This document shows, one piece after another, positions 9,418 to 37,652 of a stretch of DNA of 64,000 nt. The position numbers and the translations under genes were made by a program. Position 1 is the stretch's first letter. Every line of letters starts with the position of its first letter. The DNA is taken from assembly GCA_017470425.1 (NCBI GenBank), contig JAFUYT010000017.1, forward strand, positions 1 to 64,000, read 5' to 3'. Under the pieces are notes generated by a model, which had not been told where the DNA came from, did no database searches, and saw only the letters and a program-made list of their open reading frames with translations. This stretch comes from Bacteroidaceae bacterium. GTDB taxonomy: Bacteria; Bacteroidota; Bacteroidia; Bacteroidales; Bacteroidaceae.

Positions 9418-11204
9418 TTCTTATTATCTTTATTTCGGATCTCCACCCTGCGAATCTTTCCGCTGATGGTCTTGGGCAGTTCATCGACGAACTCGATGAT
9501 GCGGGGGTATTTGTAGGGCGCTGTCTCGCGCTTGACGTGCTGCTGCAGTTCCTTGATGAGCTCGTCGCCGGCTTTCTCCTTCCATTCCTTACCCAGTACG
9601 ACGGTGGCTTTCACGACCATACCCCGGATGTCGTCGGGGACGCCGGTGATGGCACATTCCACGACGGCGGGATGCGTCATCAGTGCGCTCTCCACCTCGA
9701 AGGGGCCGATGCGGTAGCCGCTGGACTTGATGACATCGTCGGTGCGGCCCTCAAACCAGTAGTAGCCGTCCTCGTCGCGCCACGCCACGTCGCCCGTGTG
9801 GTAGATGCCGTCGTGCCATGCTTGGCGTGTCAGTTCCGGGTCGCGGTAGTATTCCTTGAAGAGGCCGAGGGGACGGGTTACAGCCCCCCGTGGCCCCCCG
9901 GCGGGGGGCGTTACATCGCCGCTTTGTTTATCCCCCACCGGGGGATTATAGGGGGCTCTTATTACGATTTCCCCCTTTTCACCGTCCTCGCAGGGCGTGC
10001 CGTCGGGTTTCAGGAGGTCGATCTGATACTGGCCGTTGGGCTTGCCCATGCTTCCCGGTTTGGGCTCCATCCAGGGGAACGTGCCGAGGGTCATGGTGGT
10101 CTCTGTCTGCCCGAAGCCCTCCATGAGGCGGATGCCCGTCTGCTCGTAGAACTTCTGATAGACGGCGGGGTTCAGCGCCTCGCCGGCGGTGCAGCAGTAG
10201 CGCAGGGCGCTGAGGTCGTACTGCGTGAGGTCTTCGCGGATCATGAAGCGGTAGATGGTGGGCGGCGCGCAGAAACTCGTGACGTGGTACTTCTCCATCT
10301 GGCGCAGCAGGCGGTCGGCATTGAACTGCTCGTGGTCATAGACGAAGACGGTGGCACCGGCGAACCATTGTCCGTAGAACTTACCCCATACGGCTTTGCC
10401 CCAGCCCGTGTCGGCGACGGTCAGGTGCAGGGAGTCCTCGGAGAGGTTATGCCAGAAGACGCCTGTCGTCAGGTGTCCCATGGCGTAGAGGAAGTCGTGA
10501 GCTACCATTTTCGGCTCGCCCGACGTGCCGCTGGTGAAGTACATCAGCATCGTGTCGTCGTTGGAGTGGAAGCCCGCCCCCTTCCCCTCCCTGGGGAGGG
10601 GCGACAAATTCGACGGCATGGGAGCAGAGCCACCCAGACAAGAGGGTATCTCCTTCGACGTCAGCCATAAGAAGCCATCCTCTGAATGACCTGTCTGGTC
10701 TCCCCCTTCTCCTATTTCCACCACTAACTTCAATGTCGGGCTCTCGGGCAGCGCCTCGCGGATCTGGCCTGTAACGTAAGGGTCATCTACGCAGATGATG
10801 GCTTTCACGCTCGCGCGTGTGTTCCTATATATAATGTCATGTTTCGTGAGCATGTGCGTGGCGGGGATGACCACAGCGGCGAGCTTGTGCAGGGCCAGCA
10901 TGGTGATCCACCACTCGTAGCGGCGCTTGAGGATCAGCATCACGGGGTCTCCCTTGCCGATGCCGAGACTCTGGAGATAGGCGGCGGCCTGGTCGCTCTC
11001 CTGCTTCAGCTGCCCGAAGGTGGCGCGGCGCTCCACGCCTTCGTCGTTGGTCCAGAGCAGTGCCAGCTTATCGGGCGCCTCCTCGGCCCATGCGTCCATC
11101 ACGTCGTAGGCGAAGTTGAAGTGCTCGGGGATGATGAACTCCAGATGTTCGTTGAAGTCCTCTGTCGATGTGAATTGTGTTTGCTTGAGAAATCGTTCTA
11201 TCAT
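9414..11204 (-). CDS. AMP-forming acyl-CoA synthetase carrying two in-frame repeat insertions
   Basis: An adenylate-forming enzyme that activates a carboxylic acid with ATP and joins it to CoA. Core motifs are YFTSGTSGEPKMVAHD (ATP loop), YHTGDVAWRDEDGYYWFEGR, DDVIKSSGYRIGP, and the C-terminal PKTISGKIRR with the catalytic Lys. It resembles the medium-chain / acetyl-CoA synthetase group; the substrate is not evident. Length is 596 residues, longer than usual because of two insertions: a family 1 element at about residue 201-211 (LSPLPREGKGAGF), and a family 2 element at about 416-441 (NPPVGDK...TPPAGGPRG). Both lie in loops between conserved motifs. Order on the strand is XRE-cupin, this gene, proC. 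Confidence 0.9.
   Translation of the reverse strand: MIERFLKQTQFTSTEDFNEHLEFIIPEHFNFAYDVMDAWAEEAPDKLALLWTNDEGVERRATFGQLKQESDQAAAYLQSLGIGKGDPVMLILKRRYEWWITMLALHKLAAVVIPATHMLTKHDIIYRNTRASVKAIICVDDPYVTGQIREALPESPTLKLVVEIGEGGDQTGHSEDGFLWLTSKEIPSCLGGSAPMPSNLSPLPREGKGAGFHSNDDTMLMYFTSGTSGEPKMVAHDFLYAMGHLTTGVFWHNLSEDSLHLTVADTGWGKAVWGKFYGQWFAGATVFVYDHEQFNADRLLRQMEKYHVTSFCAPPTIYRFMIREDLTQYDLSALRYCCTAGEALNPAVYQKFYEQTGIRLMEGFGQTETTMTLGTFPWMEPKPGSMGKPNGQYQIDLLKPDGTPCEDGEKGEIVIRAPYNPPVGDKQSGDVTPPAGGPRGAVTRPLGLFKEYYRDPELTRQAWHDGIYHTGDVAWRDEDGYYWFEGRTDDVIKSSGYRIGPFEVESALMTHPAVVECAITGVPDDIRGMVVKATVVLGKEWKEKAGDELIKELQQHVKRETAPYKYPRIIEFVDELPKTISGKIRRVEIRNKDNKK
9881..9957 (-). repeat. Family 2 composite element inside acyl-CoA synthetase
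   Basis: Two GC palindromes, ggccccccggcggggggc-like and tcccccaccgggggat, with a short spacer. The same two-part layout occurs in GH51 (37098-37250) and GH78 (61321-61392). Confidence 0.8.
10571..10602 (-). repeat. Family 1 palindromic element inside acyl-CoA synthetase
   Basis: Core cccctccctggggagggg, translated in frame as PLPREGKGAGF just before the ATP-loop motif. Confidence 0.8.
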
Positions 11205-11210
11205 AATGAG

Positions 11211-11246
11211 AGCCCACCCCTAACCCCTCCCTGAGGAGGGGCACTC
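11211..11246. repeat. Family 1 palindromic element upstream of acyl-CoA synthetase
   Basis: agcccaccc...ggggcactct element in the 79-bp gap between the XRE-cupin gene and the synthetase start, 7 bases ahead of the ATG. Confidence 0.8.
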
Positions 11247-11283: not shown

Positions 11284-11904
11284 TTAAAAAATGATGGCGA
11301 AGAATTTGACGTTGTGGTTGTTCAGTGCGCGCATCCCGTGGGGCTGTGTGGCGTCGAAGTAGATGCTGTCGCCCTCGTTGAGTACCAGGGTTTTCTGCCC
11401 GATGGTCAGCTCCATCGTTCCCTCGAGCACCATGTTGAACTCCTGTCCGGGGTGTGAGTTGCTCTCGCGGGGGGTGTCCTCGGGCTTCGGTTCCACGGTG
11501 ACGATGAAGGGATCCGCCTTGCGGCCGCGGAAGCCGCTGGCCAGGCTCTCGTAGTTGTAAGCCTTGCGGCGCTCCACGTGCAGACCCTGTCCCTTGCGGG
11601 TGAGGAAGTAGGAACTCATGTGGGGCTCCTCACCGAAGAGCAGCACGTTCAGCTCGACGCCATATTCCTTGGCAATCTTCTGGAGATTGGCCACGGAGAG
11701 CTCGCCCTCGCCGCTCTCCATCTGGAGGTAGTGCTCGAGGGTGATGCCGCAGAGGTCTGCCACCTCCTGTGCTTCGATGTCCAGCACATCGCGCAAGCCG
11801 CGCAGGCGCTCGCCGATTTGTATGAGGGCAGAGGCGGACTCGGACTCTCCCCCTGCCCTCCCTGTCAGGGAGGGAGCAGAATGTATTTGACTGGTTGGAT
11901 TCAT
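11284..11904 (-). CDS. XRE-cupin transcription regulator
   Basis: A 206-residue protein with an N-terminal Cro/C1-type helix-turn-helix (about residues 31-85: LRGLRDVLDIEAQEVADLCG, then ITLEHYLQMESGE) and a C-terminal cupin barrel (about 130-206, with GQEFNMVLEGTMEL and GDSIYFDATQPHGMRAL). Such proteins sense small molecules and commonly control neighbouring metabolic genes. Here it sits directly ahead of the acyl-CoA synthetase, which may be its target. The first 25 residues (MNPTSQIHSAPSLTGRAGGE) derive from a family 1 element and its flank. The native start was probably nearer the helix-turn-helix. Confidence 0.9.
   Translation of the reverse strand: MNPTSQIHSAPSLTGRAGGESESASALIQIGERLRGLRDVLDIEAQEVADLCGITLEHYLQMESGEGELSVANLQKIAKEYGVELNVLLFGEEPHMSSYFLTRKGQGLHVERRKAYNYESLASGFRGRKADPFIVTVEPKPEDTPRESNSHPGQEFNMVLEGTMELTIGQKTLVLNEGDSIYFDATQPHGMRALNNHNVKFFAIIF
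11844..11878 (-). repeat. Family 1 palindromic element at the XRE-cupin 5' end
   Basis: Core ccctccctgtcagggaggg. Inverted partner of 11961-11995. Its flank gtatttgactsgttggatt also follows the proB copy. Confidence 0.85.
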
Positions 11905-11960
11905 AAGAATATTCTATTATAAAAATGATCAATCTCAATGACTATTCGTGAGAGGTAATT

Positions 11961-11995
11961 GCTCCCTCCCTTATAGGGAGGGCGTGGGGAGAGTC
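11961..11995 (+). repeat. Family 1 palindromic element at the argD 3' end
   Basis: Core ccctcccttatagggaggg. It contains the argD stop codon and last residues. With 11844-11878 it forms an inverted pair around the intergenic region, as at proC/proB. Confidence 0.85.
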
Positions 11996-13262: not shown

Positions 13263-14063
13263 TCAGAAGACGATGTTGCAGGTCAGTCCTGCGGCATGAC
13301 CCTCGATTTCGTAGAAGGGTGCTGCCACGATGATCGGTGCGTCGCCGCTCTTGCCGTGCTTGCCTGCGATGTCGGATTCCGCGGGCGTGTCATCAATCTT
13401 AAACCATCGTTTCCAGACGGGTAGCATCCAGTAACCGGCATTGGCGCAGAGGATGCCGACGCCGGCACCCGCCAGCACATCGCCCACCCAGTGCCGTTTG
13501 TTATAGACGCGCATGAAGGCCACGCCCGTCGCCACGGCGTAGGCCGCACTACCGTAGCCCCAGCCATATTCGATGCGCATCAGCTCCGCGCCTGTGAAGG
13601 CGGTGGCGGTGTGCCCCGAGAAGAAAGAGTTGCGCGCCTCGGAGTCGGGGCGTTGTTCGCGGACGGTGTATTTCACGGTGTTGGTGACGGCCGCCATAAA
13701 AGCGTGAGCCGTCGCCGAGGCGATGACGCGGTCACGGAAGTTATGTCTGCTCTTGACGCCCGGGATGAAGCCTAAGAACGGGTGCACGGCCGTAGGGGCA
13801 TATTGCAGGTACTCATCGGCAGAGGTCTTGTGGTAGTTGGGATTCATGTCGTAGCGAGCGCGTTTTTCGAGCCAATCCACCGGGCTTTTGTCGCATAATC
13901 CCCACGCCCCGGCAGTGATGAGCACGGCGGGTGCAATGAGCTGCGTCGGCTGGAAATAGGGATTCTTGCGCCCGCTCTGTGGGGTGACGCTCGTGGAGTC
14001 CTCCTGCGCGTGGAGCGGTAGGAGACCGATGCAGAGGCCGATGGTCAATAGGAGCTGTTTCAT
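13263..14063 (-). CDS. PAP2-family phosphatase, exported
   Basis: A lipid-phosphate-phosphatase-type protein. All three PAP2 motifs are present: K-x6-RP in KYTVREQRP, the central SGH in SFFSGHTATAF, and R-x5-H-x3-D in RVYNKRHWVGDV. A signal peptide (MKQLLLTIGLCIGLLPLHAQ) precedes a Gln/Pro-rich stretch, so the active site faces the periplasm. Length is 266 residues. It probably dephosphorylates a lipid carrier, lipid A or a phospholipid. The start overlaps the upstream outer-membrane gene's stop by 4 bases. The three genes 17470-13263 form an envelope cassette inside the arginine cluster. Confidence 0.88.
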   Translation of the reverse strand: MKQLLLTIGLCIGLLPLHAQEDSTSVTPQSGRKNPYFQPTQLIAPAVLITAGAWGLCDKSPVDWLEKRARYDMNPNYHKTSADEYLQYAPTAVHPFLGFIPGVKSRHNFRDRVIASATAHAFMAAVTNTVKYTVREQRPDSEARNSFFSGHTATAFTGAELMRIEYGWGYGSAAYAVATGVAFMRVYNKRHWVGDVLAGAGVGILCANAGYWMLPVWKRWFKIDDTPAESDIAGKHGKSGDAPIIVAAPFYEIEGHAAGLTCNIVF

Positions 14064-16510
14064 AACTCAATCTTCAAGGTTCCGATGATACCGCGAGGGA
14101 TGGTCAGTGTCATTGCCGGGCCGCGGCGGTCCAGGCCGCGCACCCCCTGCGGGAAAGAATATTCGGTAAGGACATTTCCGAAGTCGTAGGCATTGTAGCA
14201 TAGCAGGCTGAGGCTCATGGGGTGCCCTTTCACCGCCCATTGTGCACGGGCATGGAGGTCGATATTGAAGAGGGCACTCTCGCGGCAGCCGAAGTCGCCG
14301 TCGGTGGGGTTGATGCCGCGCGAGCATGTCGGGCGGATGCCGACCAGCATATTCCCGTCGGCATCGGTGGCTGTGGCTGTGTTGAAGCTGACGATGGGCT
14401 GACCATCGGTCCAGCGTCCTGTGATGCCGAACTGGAAGTGCTTGTTCACGTTGTAGACCAGGTAGATACGGCACATATAGGCTTTGTCCTGATCCAGACG
14501 CCCCACGCCGGGGTAGCGGGCCGTGGCGTTGCTGACGGTATTCTGCGTGTTGGGGTTTGCTGTGGACTCAGAGAGCGCATCGATGTTGTTGGTCGAGGGT
14601 CCGATGCCGAGTGCTGAGAGCCCCGTGCCCATCATCGACTGCCAGGAGAGGCTGAAGAGGAAACGCTCGCCGCGATAGGTGTAGCGTGTTGTCTGAGTCA
14701 TGAAGTAGGGCGTGTTCGTGAGCCAGCTGGTCCCCATCAACTCCGTGGGCTGGTAGTCAACGATATAGTCGCGCCGGCCGGGGTACATGAAAAAGTAGCC
14801 GTCGGGGGCGGTGTAGCCATTGGCATCGTAGCCGTCGGCAAAGCGGGTCATCCACGTGTGGTAGTACTTCTTAAAGCTCTGCAGCAAGGCAATCTCATGG
14901 CGCCCGAAGCGCAGGTGGATGGGGATGCTGAGGGTGGCGTAGGATGGTTGCCACAGGCCGCTGGCGTAGCGGTGGCTATTGCCGCCCGTCGTGGTGAACA
15001 ACTGGTCGGTACCGCTGTAGTAAATGTCGGCGTTCATGTAGTCGCGGCTCATGTAGCGGACGTCCTCGATGTTGTAGCTCACGCGGTCGTGGCTCAGCAC
15101 GAAGCCGAGTTGCAGCCACCGCGTGGGGCGGTAGTCGAGGCTCGCCGCGGCCTTGGCGTTGGGTGTCACCTTCGTGCGGTCGCGCAGCACCATGCCGTCC
15201 AGCGTGAGATAGAGATGTCCGCGCACGCTGAGCTTCGGTGTCAGCTGGTAGAAAGCCTCCACGCCCACCTGGTTCTCCAGCAGTCCTGCGGCAAAGGCGT
15301 GGCTGCTCCAGTCGTAGCGATAGAGTGGAGTGGGAGAGGGCTGAAGCATGTGTTGCATGTACAGCTCGTTGGAGAAGGCGGTTGCCTCGGGGGTGAAGTA
15401 GAGGAGGGAATTGTAGCCGTCGGCCTTCAGCTGCAGCCATGACCGCAAGGGCTTGCTGTAGGTGAGCGCCCAGGACAGCTCATGTGTCCTGCCGTCGGCC
15501 AGCCACGGCTCCAGGGACTCGCCGTCCTGATCCACGAGGTTGCGACGGAACTCCCGTTCTTTGTGGCGCGTGACATTTGTGGCCCACGTCAGTCCTGTTG
15601 TCAAGGCTCCCTTCTTGGCATAGAGCGAGGCACTGTAGGTGTTCAGCCGCGCGACCTCGTTGGGGTTGTAGTAGAACTCCGCCCCATAGCTGTCTGTGCC
15701 CGAGAAGTTGACAAAATAGCCCATTTTATCGAGGTAATGCCCCGATGGCAGCTGGCCGTCCATCTGCACTTTGTAATATGTTCCCGTATAGAACGGATAG
15801 CCAGCCACAAGACCGTTGTAGCCGAAGTTGGGGAGGGCTTGTTGTCCGGCACTGGCATACAGATGCTGACGGTAGCCGCGACCGTCGGCGTCGCGTAGCG
15901 TGTAGGCTACGTCCATCGTGCCCTGTCCCCGCACGTACTGTCGGTTCTTGATGGCTTCGCGGTCGTAGGCTTCCTCGGTGCCCGTGGCGTGGAAGAGGTG
16001 GATGATGTCCTCCGTGCCCCATGAGATGCCGCCCAGGTTGCCACGGTTCCACGACACCTGCGCATAGTCACGTGCCAGCGTGTCCAGCTCAAATTCGAGT
16101 GTGGAGCTGTTGGGGGTGATGCGCAGGTGGTAGTTCTCCATGTTGGGCACATAGCTGGTGGAGCCTGGCGTGAAGCGGTTGTCAATGCGGAAGCCATCCA
16201 AATAATAGCGATTCCATCGGTATGAATTGCCATCGACACTGAACATCAGCTGCCCCGCCTCGTCCCATTGTCCGACATGTAAGCCTTGGTAGATGGTGTG
16301 GTCGCTGAGTGCATCAAGCCAATGCACCAGATGGCCCTGATGATAGAAGTCCCGGAAGAAGTCGGCGCGAACGGAATCGGCATCGACTTGGGCATGTAGG
16401 GGTAGGGTGAACAGTAAAAGAACTGATCCAGCCCTTACCCTCCCTATGAGGGAGGGAGTGGTCACCTTTGCAAGTAGATGCCAAATGCTATGGATGAGTC
16501 CTTTTTTCAC
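14060..16510 (-). CDS. Large outer-membrane beta-barrel protein (TonB-receptor-like)
   Basis: An 816-residue exported protein. After the signal peptide, residues about 45-200 look like a degenerate plug region (YYLDGFRIDNRFTPG). The rest is a run of alternating strands rich in Tyr, Trp and Gly, typical of a 22-strand barrel, with TPKLSVRGHLYLT- and WLQLGFVLSHDRV-type hairpins. The TonB box and the N-terminal carboxypeptidase-like domain of SusC proteins are not visible. The N-terminus is odd: a family 1 element (VTTPSLIGRVRAG, residues about 17-28) sits in the signal peptide between a Lys-rich start and the hydrophobic core LLLFTLPLHAQ. It is coupled to the PAP2 gene downstream and to another outer-membrane gene 3 bases upstream. 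Confidence 0.8.
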   Translation of the reverse strand: MKKGLIHSIWHLLAKVTTPSLIGRVRAGSVLLLFTLPLHAQVDADSVRADFFRDFYHQGHLVHWLDALSDHTIYQGLHVGQWDEAGQLMFSVDGNSYRWNRYYLDGFRIDNRFTPGSTSYVPNMENYHLRITPNSSTLEFELDTLARDYAQVSWNRGNLGGISWGTEDIIHLFHATGTEEAYDREAIKNRQYVRGQGTMDVAYTLRDADGRGYRQHLYASAGQQALPNFGYNGLVAGYPFYTGTYYKVQMDGQLPSGHYLDKMGYFVNFSGTDSYGAEFYYNPNEVARLNTYSASLYAKKGALTTGLTWATNVTRHKEREFRRNLVDQDGESLEPWLADGRTHELSWALTYSKPLRSWLQLKADGYNSLLYFTPEATAFSNELYMQHMLQPSPTPLYRYDWSSHAFAAGLLENQVGVEAFYQLTPKLSVRGHLYLTLDGMVLRDRTKVTPNAKAAASLDYRPTRWLQLGFVLSHDRVSYNIEDVRYMSRDYMNADIYYSGTDQLFTTTGGNSHRYASGLWQPSYATLSIPIHLRFGRHEIALLQSFKKYYHTWMTRFADGYDANGYTAPDGYFFMYPGRRDYIVDYQPTELMGTSWLTNTPYFMTQTTRYTYRGERFLFSLSWQSMMGTGLSALGIGPSTNNIDALSESTANPNTQNTVSNATARYPGVGRLDQDKAYMCRIYLVYNVNKHFQFGITGRWTDGQPIVSFNTATATDADGNMLVGIRPTCSRGINPTDGDFGCRESALFNIDLHARAQWAVKGHPMSLSLLCYNAYDFGNVLTEYSFPQGVRGLDRRGPAMTLTIPRGIIGTLKIEL
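16430..16462 (-). repeat. Family 1 palindromic element inside a signal peptide
   Basis: Core ccctccctatgagggaggg, translated in frame between the n-region and h-region of the signal peptide of the 816-residue outer-membrane protein. Confidence 0.8.
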
Positions 16511-16513
16511 TCT

Positions 16514-17599: not shown

Positions 17600-18571
17600 T
17601 CAGAAGGCACTGGGCTTCAGGTTGAGGCCGGCGTGCTCGTCGATGCCGAACATGAGGTTCATGTTCTGCACGGCCTGACCGCTGGCACCCTTCAGGAGGT
17701 TGTCGATGATGGAGGTGATGAGTAGCTTGTTCTCGAATTTCTCCACGTGTACGAGCGCCTTGTTGGTGTTGACGACCTGCTTCAGGTCAAGGTCCCGATC
17801 CACGTAGTGCGTGAAGGCGGTCGTCTCGTAGAACTGCTTGTACATCTTCACGATATCCTCCTCGGGCAAGGCTGGGTCGATGCGCACCACCTCTGTGCAG
17901 AAGATGCCGCGTGCGAAGTCGCCACGATAGGGAATGAAATCCACGGATGACTCGAAGCCGGGCTGCAGCTGTGCCAGCGACTGCCGGATCTCGGCCAGGT
18001 GCTGGTGGCGGAAAGGCTTGTAGATGCTCAGGTTGTTATTGCGCCACGAGAAGTGTGTCGTGCTGCCAGGCTTCACGCCGGCACCCGTGGAGCCTGTGAT
18101 GGCGTTCACGCTGATGTCCTCGTGCAACAGCCAGTTGGCAGCCAGCGGCAGCAAGCCTAACTGGATGGCTGTGGCGAAGCATCCGGGATTGGCGATGTGG
18201 CGTGCGTGCACGATATTCTCGCGGTTGAGCTCCGGCAGGCCATAGACGTAGTCGTGGCTGCCGGCGATGCGGAAGTCCTGTGCCAGGTCGATGATGCGCA
18301 CGTTCTGCGGCACGGGATGCTCCGCCAGGAACTCGGCGCTCTTGCCGTGGCCCATGCACAGGAACAGTACATCGACGCTCTTCAGCGCCATGCGGCTGGT
18401 GAACTTCAACTCCGTCTCGCCCAGCAGCCCCTCGTGAACGTCGGTGATGAGGTTCTTGGCGTTGCTGGTGCTGTGGACGAAGGCAATCTCTGCCTCGGGG
18501 TGGTGCAGCAACAGGCGGATGAGCTCACCCGCCGTGTAGCCGGCACCACCGATGATTCCAACTTTAATCAT
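17600..18571 (-). CDS. argC: N-acetyl-gamma-glutamyl-phosphate reductase
   Basis: NADPH-dependent reduction of the acylglutamyl phosphate in arginine synthesis. The N-terminal Rossmann motif is VGIIGGAGYTAGEL. The active-site Cys131 is in ANPGCFATA. The C-terminal HLAEI and SFIPYRG-like (VDFIPYRGDFARG) catalytic region is also present. Length of 323 residues fits the family. The start overlaps the argG stop by 4 bases, which implies translational coupling in the argR-GNAT-argG-argC operon. Confidence 0.96.
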   Translation of the reverse strand: MIKVGIIGGAGYTAGELIRLLLHHPEAEIAFVHSTSNAKNLITDVHEGLLGETELKFTSRMALKSVDVLFLCMGHGKSAEFLAEHPVPQNVRIIDLAQDFRIAGSHDYVYGLPELNRENIVHARHIANPGCFATAIQLGLLPLAANWLLHEDISVNAITGSTGAGVKPGSTTHFSWRNNNLSIYKPFRHQHLAEIRQSLAQLQPGFESSVDFIPYRGDFARGIFCTEVVRIDPALPEEDIVKMYKQFYETTAFTHYVDRDLDLKQVVNTNKALVHVEKFENKLLITSIIDNLLKGASGQAVQNMNLMFGIDEHAGLNLKPSAF

Positions 18572-19833
18572 CTCTGTTCGTCCTTGTGGATTCCGTAATA
18601 TACGCGCAGTGGCGTAGAGAGCACTTTGATGAAGCCCTTGGCCTCGTCGGCGGTCCAGCCATTCTGTGTCTCGCCATATTCTCCGAGCTTGGACTTGGTC
18701 AGGTCGTTGACGGAATCAACGCCGACAGTCTCAAAGCCGAAGGGGCGGAGCTTGAGGATGGCGGTGCCGGTGACGTTGCGCTGCGTGGAGGTCAGGAATG
18801 CCTCCAGGTCGGGCATCACGGGCTCCAGATACTGGCTCTCATGCAGGAACATACCGTACCAGTTGCCGAGCTGGTCCTTCCAGTACTGCTGCCACTTGGA
18901 GAGGGTAGATTTCTCTAAAAGGCGGTGTGCCTCGATGATGAGCTTCGGAGCGGCGGCCTCGAAGCCTACACGGCCCTTGATGCCCACGATGGTGTCGCCC
19001 ACGTTGGCGTCGCGACCGATGGCGTAGCTGGCACCGATCTCCTCGATCTTCTGGATCGCCTTGATGCGGTCGTCGAAGTGTTCGCCGTTGACACCCACGA
19101 TCTCGCCCTCCTTGAATTCAATCTTCAGCAGGCTCTCCGGCTCCTTGGCCGTCACGTGCTTCAGGTACGCCTCCTCGGGCAGTCCCTGTGTAGCGTCGAG
19201 CAGCTCGCCGCCGCAGATGCTGGTGCCCCAGATGCCCACGTTGTAGGAATACTTCAGCTTGGCGAAGTCTGCCGCGAAGCCGTGGGCGTTCAGGTAATCG
19301 ACCTCTTCTTTGCGCGTCAGCTTCTTGTCGCGGGTCAGCGTGATAATCTCCACGCCCGGGGCCATGACGAGGAAGGTCATGTCGAAACGAATCTGGTCGT
19401 TGCCGGCACCCGTAGAGCCGTGGGCGATGGCATCCGCGCCGATCTCGTTGGCATAGCGTGCGATGGCGATGGCCTGGAAGATGCGCTCACTGCTCACCGA
19501 GATGGGGTAGCAGTTGTTACGCAGCACGTTGCCGAAGATCATGTACTTCAGCGACTTGGCATAGTATTCCTGCGTCACGTCGAGCGCCACATATTTCGTG
19601 GCCCCCAGCTTGTAGGCGTTCTCTTCATTGGTCTTCAGCTGTTCGGCGCTGAAGCCGCCGGTGTTGGCACATGCTGCGTGCACTTCATAACCCAGTTCTT
19701 TGGCGAGATACATCACGGTGTAGCTCGTGTCCAGGCCACCGCTGAAGGCGACCACTACACGCTTGCGGTGCAGCCCACCCCCAGCCCCTCCCTGGGGAGG
19801 GGTGCTTGTTACTGTTTGTTTGTTTGTTTCCAT
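18568..19833 (-). CDS. argG: Argininosuccinate synthase with repeat-derived N-terminus
   Basis: Joins citrulline and aspartate with ATP. The ATP pyrophosphatase motif VVVAFSGGLDTSYTV starts at about residue 26, preceded by residues that are not part of the family: METNKQTVTSTPPQGGAGGG, of which the second half is a family 1 element. Downstream signatures include AHGSTGAGNDQIRF and the citrulline-site region. Length is 421 residues, longer than the norm by roughly this extension. The start overlaps the end of the acyltransferase-DUF559 gene by 25 bases. The inserted repeat has therefore changed both the end of one protein and the start of the next. Confidence 0.95.
   Translation of the reverse strand: METNKQTVTSTPPQGGAGGGLHRKRVVVAFSGGLDTSYTVMYLAKELGYEVHAACANTGGFSAEQLKTNEENAYKLGATKYVALDVTQEYYAKSLKYMIFGNVLRNNCYPISVSSERIFQAIAIARYANEIGADAIAHGSTGAGNDQIRFDMTFLVMAPGVEIITLTRDKKLTRKEEVDYLNAHGFAADFAKLKYSYNVGIWGTSICGGELLDATQGLPEEAYLKHVTAKEPESLLKIEFKEGEIVGVNGEHFDDRIKAIQKIEEIGASYAIGRDANVGDTIVGIKGRVGFEAAAPKLIIEAHRLLEKSTLSKWQQYWKDQLGNWYGMFLHESQYLEPVMPDLEAFLTSTQRNVTGTAILKLRPFGFETVGVDSVNDLTKSKLGEYGETQNGWTADEAKGFIKVLSTPLRVYYGIHKDEQR
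19772..19807 (+). repeat. Right inverted repeat of the DUF559 segment (family 1)
   Basis: 36 bp, agcccaccc...ggggtgctt, lying in the argG N-terminus. Its reverse complement matches 20208-20244 with one mismatch over 30 bp. Confidence 0.88.
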
Positions 19834-20861
19834 ATTGATTGTTGTATTTGAGATATTACGTTGTCTGTGTCAGCGATGACTTGGTCGTTTGTGAAGCGTA
19901 ACACTTTGAAACCTTTCGCTTCGAGATACTGGGTCCTTTCCTCGTCGCTCGCCTGTTGGTCTGGTAATTGATGATACCCCCCATCAATCTCAATGAGAAG
20001 CTTAATCGCCGGTGCAGAGAAGTCAGCGATGAAAAGACCTATGATATGTTGTCGCCTGAACGAAACACCCAACTGCTTCCCTTTCAGATATTGCCATATG
20101 ATGCGTTCTGCATCCGTCGGATTCTTCCTATTCTTCTCGGCAAAATCCTTCAGGACATCATAGACAGAACAGTCTGCAGTCTCGTATGCTTTCCTTATCC
20201 TCCTCTCAGCACTCCCCTCCCCAGGGAGGGGTTGGGGGTGGGCTGTCCTGTCATTTTCTAACCGCCTGATCCTATCTATCACCTCCTGTGGAATCTTGGC
20301 CGGCAGGTGCTCCTCGGGGTCGAAGAGCATGGCGGTGCAGATGCAGAACTTACGGTTGCGCTCGCGCAGCACGTTGATGTTCACACAGCCCTCACATCCC
20401 TTCCAGAACGCCTCGTCGTCCGTCAAGTCATCGAACGTCACGGGGAGGTAGCCCAGCTGGGTGTTCATCTTCATGACCGCCTTGCCGCTGGTGAGCGAGA
20501 AAATCTTGGCGTGGGGCCAGCGTGTGCGTGCCAGCGAGAAGGTCATGTCCTTGATGCGCTTGGCGATGCCGAGACCGCGGAAGTCCGGGTGTACGATGAG
20601 ACCGGAGGTCGTCACATATTGTTTGTTACCCCATGTCTCGATGTAGCTGAAGCCTGCAAAGCGAGGCTCCGAACCGTCGGCCTGCGGCGCCAGGGCAATG
20701 ACCGCCTTGGCCTCGCGCATCTTCGTGAAAACATACTCGTGTGTACGCTTGGCGATACCCGTACCGCGCACCTTCGCCGCGTCCTCGATGGTCTTCAGGA
20801 TAGTATCGACATATTTCTCGTGGGACTCGTCGGCCACCATCACTTGTATTTCCTGTTCCAT
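19809..20861 (-). CDS. Arginine-cluster GNAT acyltransferase fused to a DUF559 endonuclease domain
   Basis: Residues 1-205 form a GNAT acyltransferase with the acyl-CoA loop VHPDFRGLGIAKRI. In this position it is expected to make N-acylglutamate, the first arginine intermediate. Residues about 206-218 (HPQPLPGEGS) are a translated family 1 element. Residues about 219-345 form a DUF559 domain, a Vsr/PD-(D/E)XK-type nuclease fold: NPTDAERIIWQYLKG, VSFRRQHIIGLFIADF, and the acidic core LLIEIDGGYH. The frame has no break at the junction and no separate start for DUF559, so one 350-residue fusion is predicted. Relatives in other Bacteroidota have the acyltransferase alone, as far as I recall. It overlaps argG by 25 bases. 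Confidence 0.88.
   Translation of the reverse strand: MEQEIQVMVADESHEKYVDTILKTIEDAAKVRGTGIAKRTHEYVFTKMREAKAVIALAPQADGSEPRFAGFSYIETWGNKQYVTTSGLIVHPDFRGLGIAKRIKDMTFSLARTRWPHAKIFSLTSGKAVMKMNTQLGYLPVTFDDLTDDEAFWKGCEGCVNINVLRERNRKFCICTAMLFDPEEHLPAKIPQEVIDRIRRLENDRTAHPQPLPGEGSAERRIRKAYETADCSVYDVLKDFAEKNRKNPTDAERIIWQYLKGKQLGVSFRRQHIIGLFIADFSAPAIKLLIEIDGGYHQLPDQQASDEERTQYLEAKGFKVLRFTNDQVIADTDNVISQIQQSIWKQTNKQ
20208..20244 (-). repeat. Left inverted repeat of the DUF559 segment (family 1)
   Basis: 37 bp, agcactccc...ggtgggct, in frame between the acyltransferase and DUF559 parts. Inverted copy of 19772-19807; together they bracket 400 bp that encode DUF559. Confidence 0.88.
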
Positions 20862-20920
20862 GATTATATTTTTTGTTTCTTATTCTCATCATCCCCCACG
20901 GGGATTACGGGTGCTCTCCC

Positions 20921-33645: not shown

Positions 33646-33666
33646 TGTGAGTTGTGCAGAAATGCT

Positions 33667-33674
33667 TATCTTTG
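33667..33674 (+). promoter_or_regulatory. -7 box of the GH51 gene
   Basis: TATCTTTG 28 bases ahead of the ATG at 33702. It rules out the upstream in-frame ATG at 33654, which would lie before the promoter. Confidence 0.7.
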
Positions 33675-33701
33675 CCGCACGAACTAACGAATGAGACGAT
33701 C

Positions 33702-36700
33702 ATGCCTTATCTTATGACCCTTTCCAAGCGGGCAACAGTCCTCGGCGGACTGCTGCTCGCTGTGTGTTTGATGACAGCCCAGGAGACAGCTATCACCTTC
33801 TCCACCGCCCGGCGCGGTCCCGTCATCGGGCCGCTGCACTATGGCATCTTCTACGAGGAGATTAACCATGCGGGCGACGGTGGCCTCTATGCCGAGCTCA
33901 TCCGCAATGGCTCGATGGAGGAGAATGGCAGTAACCCTGACTACTGGTGGCCGGTAGGTACGGCCTCGTTCAGCATCTCCTCGCAGAACCTCCTTAACGG
34001 AGCCCAGAAGCACGCCATGCACCTCAACCTCGCCAAGGCGGGCGACGGCACCCGCAACATCGGCTACTGGGGCATCAACATCGTCCGTGGGCAGAAATAC
34101 CGTGCCTCGTTCTGGCTGCGTGGTGCCGACGGCTGGACGGGCGACGTCACGCTGACGCTGGAGAGCTACGAGGGCGACGACCTGGGCCACGCCACCGTAC
34201 ACGTGGCCGACGGCTCGACATGGCAGAAATATACCGCCGAGATCACGGCCACGGGCAGCTACCAGCTCGGGTGGTTCGCCATCCGCGGCTCGCGTGCGGG
34301 TACTATTTATATCGATTGCGTGAGCCTGATGCCGCCGACGTTCAAGGACCGCGAGAACGGTATGCGGCGCGACCTGGCCGAGAAGCTGGCGGCGCTGCAC
34401 CCGCGCTTCATGCGCTTCCCGGGTGGCTGCTACATCGAGGGTGGCAACCGCTACCAGTGGCGCCACACCGTGGGCCCCGTGGAGGAGCGCTTAGGGCTCT
34501 ACAACAGCCACTGGGGCTACCCCGTCTCCAATGGCATGGGCTTCCATGAGTTCCTGCAGCTGGCCGAGGACCTGGGCGCAGAGCCGCTCTTCGTGGTCAA
34601 CGTGGGCCTCGGCCACGGATGGTACCAGGACTACCAGCACATCGAGGGCTTCATCCAGGAGGCGCTGGACGCGCTGGAGTATGCCAACGGCGACGCTTCC
34701 ACCTTCTGGGGTGCCAAGCGTGTGGCGGCCGGTCACCCCGAGCCCTTCCACCTGCGTATGCTTGAGATAGGCAACGAGAACTACAACTTCCATGCCTCGA
34801 ACAACAGCGACCAGAGCGACCACTACGCCGAGCGCTTCCATCAGTTCCGCACGGCCATCGAGGCACGCTGGCCGGAGGTCGTCTGCATCGGCAACGTGGA
34901 GAGCTGGGGCACCGACGACCCGACGTGGCGCAACCAGTATGCCGTCGATGTCGTTGATGAGCACTACTACCGCTCGCCCGACTGGTTTGCCGCCAACTAC
35001 TACAAGTACGACAACGCCAGCCGCACCAGCCACAAGATCTACAACGGCGAGTACGCCGTGACCTCGGACTTCGGCACCAACGGCACCCTGAAGGCCGCCC
35101 TGGGCGAAGCCATCTACATGGCAGGCATGGAGCGCAACGCCGACGTCTGCGTCATGGCCAGCTATGCCCCCATCTTCATGAACGAGAACGAGGCGCAGTG
35201 GCGGCCCGACATGATCCACTACAACGCCCACTCCTCCTTCGGAACGCCCAGCTACTGGGCACAGCAGATGATGGCCTCCAACGTGGGGCACCAGAACATC
35301 ACCTGGACCGAGACGGGCAACAGCGTAGGGCTCGACGGCGCACGCTTAGGCTTAGGCTCGTGGAACACCGATGTCACCTATTCAAACGTCCGCGTGACCA
35401 CCGCCGACGACACAGAAGTGTTCAACTCTCAACTTTCAACTGCCAACTCTCAACTTTCAACTTACACCTCCCCCGCCACGACCACCGGCACGGCCCATGT
35501 GCTTGACGTCTGCACCGACGACTGCACCATCGAGCTTGACGCCGTGAAGAACTCGGGCGACGAGGGCTTCCTCATCACCTTCGCATACGGCGATGCCAAC
35601 AACTACGTCTGGTGGAACCTCGGCGGATGGAACAACACGCGGCACGGCGTGGAGCAGGCCGTGAACGGCAGCAAGACGACCCTCGCCACCGCTGACGGCA
35701 CCATCCAGACGGGCCAGACCTACCACATCAAGATCGTGCGCAGCGGCCGCACCGCCAAGCTCTATCTCGATGACACGCTCATCCACACCGTCACCCTCTC
35801 CAACGCCACCGGCCAGCGCCTCTACCTCTGCGCCGCCCTCAACGAGGCCGAGGATGCCGCCATCGTGAAGGTCATCAACTACAGCGGCGAGGCCGTGCCC
35901 ACCACCTTCACCTTCGCCGATGCCACCATCAGCGGTGCTGCCGAGGTGCGTGTGATGAGCAACCCCGACAACTACGCCGAGAACTCGATGGAGAACCCCA
36001 TGAACGTGGCCCCGGCGACAGCGTCCGTCGGTTTTGCCGACGGAGCCACCCCCTCCCTCACCTACGACGTCCCCGCCTACTCCCTCTCCGTCCTCACCAT
36101 CCCCCTCTCCAGCGTCAGCCCTGAAGCCCGCCTCCAGCCCGATGGCGACCTGCCCACGCCCGCCGTCAGCTACGACTTCGAAAGCGGCGATGACATCTTT
36201 GAAATGGCCGACGGCAACCATACCTTCTATACGGGCGGCGACGACAAGGGCTATCTCGACCTCGGCAACGAAGCCGCACAGGCCATTGGCACCCTCCTGA
36301 ACGGCGAGGCCTACAGCCTCAGCCTGAACATCCTGGCCAACGGCGGCGGACACCTCAACCAGTTCTGCTGGGCATGGAACGTCAACAACGGCACCACGAA
36401 CTACGCCGGCCTCATCAACCAGGCCAACAACCTCAACTGGTACTTCGAGCGTGTGGCCTCCGGCACCACGAAGGTCAGCTCCCACGCCGGCCTCAGCCAG
36501 CGCACGTGGCACAACGTCACCGTCGTGGCCTCCGAGGGCACGGCCAGCATCTACATCGACGGCGAGCTGCGTGGCAGCAAGACCCTCACGGGCGGCAGCC
36601 TCCGCCTCAACGCGAACACGAAGGCATGGCTCGGACGCAGCCCTTTTGCGGCTGACGCGCGCATGACGGACGTCTTCTTTGATGACTTCACCGTCTATGA

Positions 36701-37652
36701 CTGCGCCCTCACGCCCGCACAGGTGCTCGCTCTCACGCAGGCTGCCACCGCCAAAAGCGCTGACTGTCCCGCCCTGCACCCCGTACCCGATACCGCCCCC
36801 AACGCCGACGCCCTCACCCTCATCGGCGACGGCACAGAGGTCGATATCACAGCCCTCCTCACGAATCCCGACTTTGCCGACGGCAGCAAGGGCTGGGAGG
36901 GCACGCCCTTCAGCGCCGCGCCCGGCACCGTGGCCGAGCATTACAGCCAGCTCTTCGACACCTATCAGGTGTTGCACAACATGCCCGCCGGCAGCTATCG
37001 CCTCTCGTGGCAGGGCTTCTACCGCAACGGTAACATCGCCAATGCCTACCTCCGCCATACTCTCGGCACCGAGGAGGTGGCAGAGGTGTATGCGGTGGCC
37101 CCCTATGATGAGGCCCCCTATAATCCCCCGGTGGGGGATGAAGCCCCCTATAATCCCCCGGTGGGGGATGAAGCCCCCTATGATCCCCCGGTGGGGGATG
37201 TTAATAACGGCAGAGAACCAACGCCCCCCGCCGGGGGGCCATGGGGGGACCCCCTCCTCTCCCTCTACGACGCCTCTGCACCCTACACCTATTCGCCCTA
37301 CACCTACCCCGACAACGTCCAGACGGCCAGCGATGCCTTCGAGGCCGGGCACTATGGGCAGCAGCTCACCTTCACCCTCTCAGAGAGCGCCGATGTCCGC
37401 ATCGGCCTCCGCCATTTCACGCCTACCGTCTATGACTGGGCCTGCGTTGATCACTTCCGCCTCACCTACATCCGTGACCTCGACGGCATAGGACCCACCC
37501 CCGCCCCCTCCCGTGAAGGGAGGGGAGAGGCTGGCGCGGTGTATGACCTCAGTGGTCGGCAGATCACCCCCTCCTCCCCTCGAAAAGGGCGGAAGGAATC
37601 TCTTCCGAAAGGCATCTATCTCATCGGAGGCCAGAAGGTGGCCGTAAGATAA
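33702..37652 (+). CDS. Secreted GH51 alpha-L-arabinofuranosidase, multidomain
   Basis: 1316 residues from the ATG at 33702. After the signal peptide (ending CLMTAQ) come a strand-rich N-terminal domain with a CBM4-like module, then the GH51 barrel. The acid/base is E359 in LEIGNENYNF. The nucleophile is E450 in YNGEYAVTS. RFPGGCYIEGGNRYQW is the usual arabinofuranosidase signature. A LamG-like domain (about 820-1020) and a further carbohydrate-binding-like domain (about 1045-1255) follow. The sorting tail starts AVYDLSGRQ. It removes arabinose from arabinan or arabinoxylan. Three repeat families are inserted in frame: family 3 at 35421-35464, family 2 at 37098-37250, family 1 at 37493-37531. 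Confidence 0.9.
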   Translation: MPYLMTLSKRATVLGGLLLAVCLMTAQETAITFSTARRGPVIGPLHYGIFYEEINHAGDGGLYAELIRNGSMEENGSNPDYWWPVGTASFSISSQNLLNGAQKHAMHLNLAKAGDGTRNIGYWGINIVRGQKYRASFWLRGADGWTGDVTLTLESYEGDDLGHATVHVADGSTWQKYTAEITATGSYQLGWFAIRGSRAGTIYIDCVSLMPPTFKDRENGMRRDLAEKLAALHPRFMRFPGGCYIEGGNRYQWRHTVGPVEERLGLYNSHWGYPVSNGMGFHEFLQLAEDLGAEPLFVVNVGLGHGWYQDYQHIEGFIQEALDALEYANGDASTFWGAKRVAAGHPEPFHLRMLEIGNENYNFHASNNSDQSDHYAERFHQFRTAIEARWPEVVCIGNVESWGTDDPTWRNQYAVDVVDEHYYRSPDWFAANYYKYDNASRTSHKIYNGEYAVTSDFGTNGTLKAALGEAIYMAGMERNADVCVMASYAPIFMNENEAQWRPDMIHYNAHSSFGTPSYWAQQMMASNVGHQNITWTETGNSVGLDGARLGLGSWNTDVTYSNVRVTTADDTEVFNSQLSTANSQLSTYTSPATTTGTAHVLDVCTDDCTIELDAVKNSGDEGFLITFAYGDANNYVWWNLGGWNNTRHGVEQAVNGSKTTLATADGTIQTGQTYHIKIVRSGRTAKLYLDDTLIHTVTLSNATGQRLYLCAALNEAEDAAIVKVINYSGEAVPTTFTFADATISGAAEVRVMSNPDNYAENSMENPMNVAPATASVGFADGATPSLTYDVPAYSLSVLTIPLSSVSPEARLQPDGDLPTPAVSYDFESGDDIFEMADGNHTFYTGGDDKGYLDLGNEAAQAIGTLLNGEAYSLSLNILANGGGHLNQFCWAWNVNNGTTNYAGLINQANNLNWYFERVASGTTKVSSHAGLSQRTWHNVTVVASEGTASIYIDGELRGSKTLTGGSLRLNANTKAWLGRSPFAADARMTDVFFDDFTVYDCALTPAQVLALTQAATAKSADCPALHPVPDTAPNADALTLIGDGTEVDITALLTNPDFADGSKGWEGTPFSAAPGTVAEHYSQLFDTYQVLHNMPAGSYRLSWQGFYRNGNIANAYLRHTLGTEEVAEVYAVAPYDEAPYNPPVGDEAPYNPPVGDEAPYDPPVGDVNNGREPTPPAGGPWGDPLLSLYDASAPYTYSPYTYPDNVQTASDAFEAGHYGQQLTFTLSESADVRIGLRHFTPTVYDWACVDHFRLTYIRDLDGIGPTPAPSREGRGEAGAVYDLSGRQITPSSPRKGRKESLPKGIYLIGGQKVAVR
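35421..35464 (+). repeat. Family 3 tandem repeat inside GH51
   Basis: Four units of tcaactctcaacttt type, translated as NSQLSTANSQLST in a loop after the catalytic barrel. Confidence 0.8.
37098..37250 (+). repeat. Family 2 element with three tandem 30-bp units inside GH51
   Basis: Three exact or near-exact 30-bp units (37111-37200), each with taatcccccggtggggga, followed after a spacer by cgccccccgccggggggcc. They are translated as repeated APYNPPVGDE. Confidence 0.9.
37493..37531 (+). repeat. Family 1 palindromic element before the GH51 sorting tail
   Basis: Core ccctcccgtgaagggaggg, translated as PTPAPSREGRGEAG directly before AVYDLSGR. Confidence 0.8.

Follow-up and report, generated by a model that had tools for sequence, protein, structure and literature searches.

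A DUF559 nuclease gene enclosed by inverted palindromes: a probable REP-type mobile element in a Bacteroidaceae genome

The 64,000 nt of DNA analysed here (the window: contig JAFUYT010000017.1 of the Bacteroidaceae assembly GCA_017470425.1, nt 1 – 64,000 of the forward strand) carries, between an acyltransferase gene of an arginine cluster and argG, a unit in which a DUF559 nuclease domain is enclosed by two inverted palindromic arms. This unit is probably one copy of an autonomous mobile element of about 500 bp, of the repetitive extragenic palindrome (REP) type, in which a PD-(D/E)XK nuclease substitutes for the HUH transposase. Comparison of loci shows the unit and its spread, and the nuclease is the putative mover. 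The same comparisons assign the palindromic ends to the gene and show a patchy distribution of the unit among relatives, with empty sites present, and closely related nucleases at unrelated sites. The parts of the unit and its hosts in the window are:

nt 20259 – 20861, minus strand: host acyltransferase (arginine cluster), the 5' part of the fused frame 19809 – 20861 (open-frame listing)
nt 20214 – 20245, no strand: 5' inverted palindromic arm (gene sense), at the acyltransferase/DUF559 junction, translated (arm alignment)
nt 19833 – 20153, minus strand: DUF559 nuclease domain, PF04480 (Pfam match, E=3.7e-31)
nt 19771 – 19802, no strand: 3' inverted palindromic arm (gene sense), within the ArgG N-terminus, translated (arm alignment)
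nt 18568 – 19833, minus strand: argG, with its start codon and an N-terminal extension inside the element (open frames, junction comparison)

The arms are 32 nt each, inverted, match at 31 of 32 positions and are spaced by 411 nt, the whole unit measuring 475 bp. The DUF559 domain and the acyltransferase form a single open frame of 350 aa (19809 – 20861, minus strand), and the 5' arm is also crossed by an open frame at 19812 – 20879. Read on the minus strand, the acyltransferase is followed by a palindrome, DUF559 and argG, its N-terminus being encoded in the mirror-image palindrome; ArgG of most relatives inspected begins a few residues ahead of VVVAFSGG. A first-pass annotation of this DNA had described a DUF559 segment between inverted repeats, and the single arm mismatch and the Pfam match bear this out. 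It was also correct in having both arms translated, but had left and right exchanged, the arm on the argG side being that at 19771 – 19802 in plus-strand coordinates. The acyltransferase label rests on gene position and on that annotation; this part has no Pfam match at E 0.001, and the fusion protein as a whole matches DUF559 and, below threshold, MTES_1575, but nothing else. The window arms have neither a CGTC tag nor a CCA tail, and no GTAG at the outer foot; AGTAG occurs on the inner side in some relatives (uncounted). At another locus (L001, nt 1342 – 1406), a tandem duplication affects the outer portion of an arm, next to a DUF559 element.

The acyltransferase (residues 1 – 201) has a match in 37 of the 41 genus genomes searched, and 30 acyltransferase-argG junctions were read by eye. 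The element is present in two of these, that of the window genome and that of genome G015 (L151), the relatives being otherwise without DUF559 here. Two junctions (L146, L160) hold a single palindrome and one (L153) a gene-less inverted pair, while neither palindrome nor pair was seen in the remainder of the 30. The precision of the host ends at this site is limited by the last codons of the acyltransferase, which differ among relatives. The fusion is not shared by all relatives, nor was any DUF559 gene without repeats found in the window genome; neither of the two outcomes that the first-pass annotation named as refuting its proposal was seen.

All five DUF559 genes found in that genome (G000, 72% complete), the window copy included, have inverted arms that are 87–97% complementary. 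Each of the five pairs has its own stem and loop, the variant being matched within the element. When 400 bp flanks were compared, a match score of 30 being taken as threshold, this was reached by 24 of 34 loci in a first set (window genome and relatives, including the nine order-level loci taken up below) and by 18 of 20 in the next. A scan of public Bacteroidota genomes gave a score of at least 30 in 59 of 78 testable loci, these coming from the best 80 of 541 matched loci, those nearest one query (two were lost at contig edges, and L113 and L127 are the same element). As controls, 412 shifted intervals from the same loci reached this score in 2 cases, and 2000 flank pairs taken from different loci in 12.4%, and the match of the arms within an element thus exceeds family likeness. 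Among 30 further Bacteroidota loci, 16 reached a score of 30 and 23 a score of 25. DUF559 was matched, in some cases only weakly, in 222 of 395 Bacteroidota genomes. This supports the proposal of a single unit made up of the nuclease gene with its inverted repeats, DUF559 genes elsewhere often carrying repeats of the same kind.

The 134 loci collapse to 123 unique elements, and analyses needing two aligned ends could use 99 of these for comparison of ends, 95 for translation and 65 for target duplication. Since the arm identities of the 99 are inflated by selection, reliance was placed instead on elements at the same site in different species, where the ends within an element match each other better than ends across species do in 147 of 180 comparisons and equally well in 13. 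These pairs are non-independent, and the first site cluster pooled elements 5' of argG (L004, L019) with argG-argC ones; for the tree the two were treated as distinct sites. Two genus genomes (G020, L051; G005, L052) carry an identical DUF559 core sequence with identical ends, for which transfer, a shared contig or a binning error are possible causes.

Judged by its reading frames, the element is commonly open to translation, either as an in-frame fusion or by giving the gene downstream a new start codon. In 53 of the 95 two-ended elements, translation could restart close to the DUF559 stop, most commonly at an ATGA overlap, in a frame that runs across the 3' arm and on into the following gene. 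The DUF559 frame itself is open through the 3' arm in 16 of the 95, and in 20 an open frame links the element with the upstream gene across the 5' arm; the opposite-strand control gives 11 of 95. The first-pass annotation was right that host translation is used, but the element does more than borrow a start codon, often providing that of the gene downstream. By Pfam, DUF559 lies in frame inside LeuRS, ValRS, RecG (where DEAD precedes and Helicase_C follows, or the reverse) and a nucleotide-sugar epimerase. It is terminal in guanylate kinase, iPGM and IspG, and is also found in a cyanobacterial Eco57I-type methylase; MetH as a host was read from sequence and not by Pfam. Among the Bacteroidota DUF559 matches listed, some 36 lie, by eye, in an open frame of at least 800 aa. 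Eight fused proteins gave Pfam matches to host domains and DUF559-type domains only, and no splicing (Hint) domain was among their matches (E <= 1e-5), nor was one seen in the window fusion; the predicted outcome is that the host protein retains the insert.

Palindromes resembling the element ends are also dispersed through the genome, as solo copies and as gene-less inverted pairs. The stems of the ends are C/T-rich, and their tail is rich in C (AGACCC / GCCTC...). A strict palindrome type (CCCTCTCC..GGAGAGGG) occurs 158 times in the window genome and not once in the backwards control, and seven times in the window against 0.01 expected. Chance repeats are ruled out by these two comparisons together with the flank controls. 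Further features of the window are:

nt 18568 – 18571, no strand: argG/argC junction with an ATGA overlap, empty here; a DUF559 element is present in several relatives
nt 11856 – 11982, no strand: gene-less inverted palindrome pair (><), with the architecture of element ends; none at the matching place in L239
nt 10584 – 10601, no strand: solo palindrome, its variant being that of the element arms
nt 11224 – 11241, no strand: solo palindrome
nt 9893 – 9909, no strand: solo palindrome, with no counterpart at the matching place in L239
nt 16440 – 16458, no strand: solo palindrome inside a long open frame (14063 – 16513, minus strand)
nt 37505 – 37525, no strand: solo palindrome inside a long open frame (33651 – 37649, plus strand)

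Of 40 close palindrome pairs lying outside the elements, 31 have the >< orientation of the element ends, and in five of these 31 the hairpins are identical, compared with 0.27 expected when partners are shuffled. One gene-less pair (L240, in G018) is absent from three relatives and lies within open sequence. Gene-less inverted pairs look like empty elements, and the relation of the scattered palindromes to the element, as first proposed, is supported by the architecture they share with its ends; the nuclease may recognise or move them. Across 37 genus genomes the number of palindromes follows the number of DUF559 genes (rho 0.62, p 5e-5) and not that of Y1_Tnp (rho 0.01), values that are uncorrected for kinship and follow exclusion by hand of weak matches and fragments. 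Y1_Tnp (PF01797), the domain of REP-associated tyrosine transposases (RAYTs), has no match in the 72% complete G000, nor in the palindrome-rich G015, G016, G018, G019 and G029, and a RAYT as mover is rejected for G000 as assembled.

The association extends beyond Bacteroidota. From a plasmid collection, 40 records had a DUF559 match and 28 were analysed (some are chromosomes filed as plasmids), spanning Cyanobacteriota, Deinococcota, Actinomycetota and Alpha-, Beta- and Gammaproteobacteria. A tailed palindrome lies not more than 300 bp from DUF559 in 25 of the 28 loci, and on both sides in 12, the density being 3.27 per kb near DUF559 and 0.34 per kb far from it; reversed sequences gave 9 hairpins against 88, and 15 of the 28 loci reached the flank threshold. 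The three loci without one are from Pseudomonas aeruginosa, Streptomyces and Shinella; that from Shinella has, by eye, a palindrome in its flank that the filter missed. The strict pattern is present in three of five named records searched (32, 36 and 7 times), and is not found in S. meliloti pSymB and a Deinococcus plasmid, in both of which the palindromes next to DUF559 differ from it in stem or loop length. In Azospirillum brasilense (record W03), 11 listed gene-less pairs span 106–117 bp, nine of them 117 bp; units of about 117 bp (L277 – L289) align as similar while their flanks are unrelated, and have the hairpins outermost and the tails inside, the reverse of the Prevotella arrangement. 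In viral relatives (36 contigs, 29–50% identical to the query), a tailed palindrome was found in one and the flank threshold was reached in three. The sole palindrome-bearing viral piece (L290, an IMG/VR contig end) resembles a bacterial ValRS gene (TTRPETIFGD by eye), and, as it appears to carry that gene together with the element, is probably host DNA.

Two further observations concern individual loci in this set. In E. coli K-12 MG1655, ycjD (DUF559) has a tailed C-rich palindrome downstream, between ycjD and fabI (L179); within the reach of the filter it is on one side only, and the locus is possibly a degenerate element. In plasmids of Pseudanabaena (L186) and Synechocystis (L184), DUF559 and palindromes lie inside or against DNA methyltransferase genes, which are Eco57I-type by Pfam and annotated as BREX PglX.

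As to the history of the gene, a tree of 145 DUF559 domains needs 27 changes of site label for 21 groups, against a shuffled mean of 64.6, although it uses 105 columns only, its bootstrap is unsettled and host-gene labels were partly assigned by sequence motif. The copies cluster by site, which indicates that many were inherited in place. This corrects the mobile-element reading as first put forward, many copies having seemingly been passed on vertically without leaving their sites. For argG-argC and for LeuRS, two label changes are the minimum in each case, whether as two gains or as one gain with one loss. A LeuRS copy (L024) groups with the five RecG copies (support 100/84), and the odd argG-argC copy, L091, differs in its end type as well. 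The nuclease domain is evidently under strong purifying selection (median dN/dS 0.075 for 29 pairs, a rough figure as many dS values are high), and residues D43, E54, D56 and H60, invariant in 27 DUF559 sequences, are the presumed catalytic residues.

A profile of DUF559 relatives matches PDB 3hrl (an endonuclease-like protein) with E 1.6e-29 over 95 positions, and PDB 3r3p (a mobile intron protein, which we take to be I-Bth0305I) with E 6.2e-9. EDxHD enzymes are Vsr-like. A DUF559 gene has been assigned to the EDxHD family (PMC9403480), and the Caulobacter DUF559 protein VsrA is described in PMC12907096 as Vsr-like and responsible for an SOS response, its authors tying it to mismatch repair. 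A plausible mechanism would have the nuclease bind the terminal hairpins, in cruciform or single-stranded form, and/or cut the target; repair of the break would then copy the element or a gene-less palindrome pair, and copies that preserve host translation would survive.

By analogy, the organisation may work like that of RAYT/REPIN (REPtron) systems, with a nuclease of Vsr/homing type. Both systems have a nuclease gene between inverted copies of a dispersed palindrome, many gene-less palindromes in the form of solos and inverted pairs, and few, persistent gene copies. They differ in the enzyme, DUF559 (PD-(D/E)XK, with Vsr/EDxHD relatives) here and HUH Y1_Tnp in RAYTs, and in that the ends of the present elements vary strongly from one to another and many are translated through, some in essential genes. 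In other words, the organisation is already known from RAYTs, and it is the enzyme, the ends and the translated insertion that differ. CGTC REPs (dRS3, RPE-4/6) are likewise short tailed palindromes with inverted pairs, also within genes (PMC3733652), but the window arms lack the CGTC tag and the palindromes here are of another sequence type; the connection is a lead. The EDxHD homing endonuclease I-Bth0305I shares a homologous nuclease domain, conserved acidic and His residues and insertion at conserved gene positions, whereas the DUF559 elements have palindromic ends and dispersed gene-less copies, with no intron or intein seen. Like inteins, they place a nuclease domain in frame within housekeeping proteins, but the Pfam scan found no self-splicing domain in the fusions. 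Rickettsia palindromic elements are not known to carry a gene of their own. They resemble the present elements in the in-frame insertion of palindromes into protein genes, a shared feature and not one of ancestry (partly after PMC3733652). No description of palindromic ends of DUF559 genes was found in the open-licence PMC literature, preprints and most subscription journals lying outside the search.

Several results weigh against an element of this kind, or narrow it. No recent duplicative transposition was seen in five copy-rich genomes, where the closest within-genome pair is 78% identical (26 of the 40 matches listed were compared, in genomes picked for high DUF559 counts). A target-site duplication of 3–9 bp is at chance level in 65 elements, the edges of which were taken from the inverted-repeat alignment, and a duplication hidden by edge error is possible; its absence speaks against a DDE-type mechanism and sets the elements apart from DDE insertion sequences and miniature inverted-repeat transposable elements. 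The flank threshold was missed by 19 of 78, 13 of 28 and 14 of 30 loci in the sets above, and reached by 3 of 9 loci of order-level relatives from other families. In some groups the hairpins are outermost and the tails inward, and the matching of arms could alternatively come from template switching between inverted repeats. Genomes G018, G026 and G027 (77–84% complete) have 123, 35 and 35 strict palindromes with no DUF559 found, possibly from gene loss, an assembly gap or the action of another mover, and G027 has a strong Y1_Tnp match. Among 24 order-level genomes outside the genus, the strict palindrome was found in two and a DUF559 match in nine, and the strict pattern is accordingly particular to the genus. 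The results from the order-level loci and G027 bear on the breadth of the pattern and not on the unit within the genus. The mobile element of the first-pass annotation stands as a single unit, but its copies are divergent within a genome and no recent ones were seen.

The profile relation to 3r3p, the EDxHD assignment, the same-place insertions in several species at LeuRS and argG-argC, those in ValRS at a matching TTRP(D/E)T position, the clustering by site and the lack of target duplication would all suit a free-standing EDxHD homing endonuclease, copied by repair of a cut empty allele, with the palindromes as secondary linkers or landing spots. We consider this unlikely: it leaves unexplained the matched palindromic ends of most copies, more than 100 dispersed palindromes and dozens of unrelated sites, and tailed palindromes are missing from 35 of 36 viral relatives. 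It is rather improbable that some different enzyme, whether RAYT-like or unknown, mobilises the palindromes and that DUF559 is a passenger or a trapped host repair/defence gene. Palindromes lie beside all five G000 genes and most loci tested in several phyla, their copy number tracks DUF559 and not Y1_Tnp, which the palindrome-rich genomes listed above lack, and the ends co-vary within the element; the palindrome-rich genomes in which DUF559 was not found, the Y1_Tnp match of G027, the link of VsrA to mismatch repair and the CGTC REPs, to which no transposase is assigned in PMC3733652, nevertheless fit such a mover. That these are old operon or fusion genes without mobility, their hairpins regulatory (RNA or DNA) and their arms kept alike by quasi-palindrome correction, agrees with the site persistence, low dN/dS and lack of recent copies but is hardly credible given the patchy distribution with empty sites, the close relatives in different genes, the 158 dispersed palindromes and the similar gene-less pairs at unrelated Azospirillum places.

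It is an evenly balanced proposition that the unit represents a new class of autonomous element, in which a Vsr-like nuclease mobilises itself and dispersed palindromes through their hairpin ends, inserting, even within essential enzymes, as a translationally transparent cassette with a frame open across both ends and an ATGA restart for the gene that follows. End-specific activity, if shown, would make a strong case for such a class.

Palindromic repeats are common in bacterial genomes, and some families, such as the CGTC REPs, have no known mobilising enzyme (PMC3733652). Were the elements a new class, a large group of REP-like repeats that crosses phyla and has lacked an enzyme would have its dedicated one in DUF559. 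DUF559, a family of unknown function, gains a testable role, with ends, target and cargo defined. The elements also illustrate a way for a selfish gene to settle in LeuRS, ValRS or RecG while the cell survives, and such entry would account for unusual inserted domains and extended N-termini among annotated proteins.

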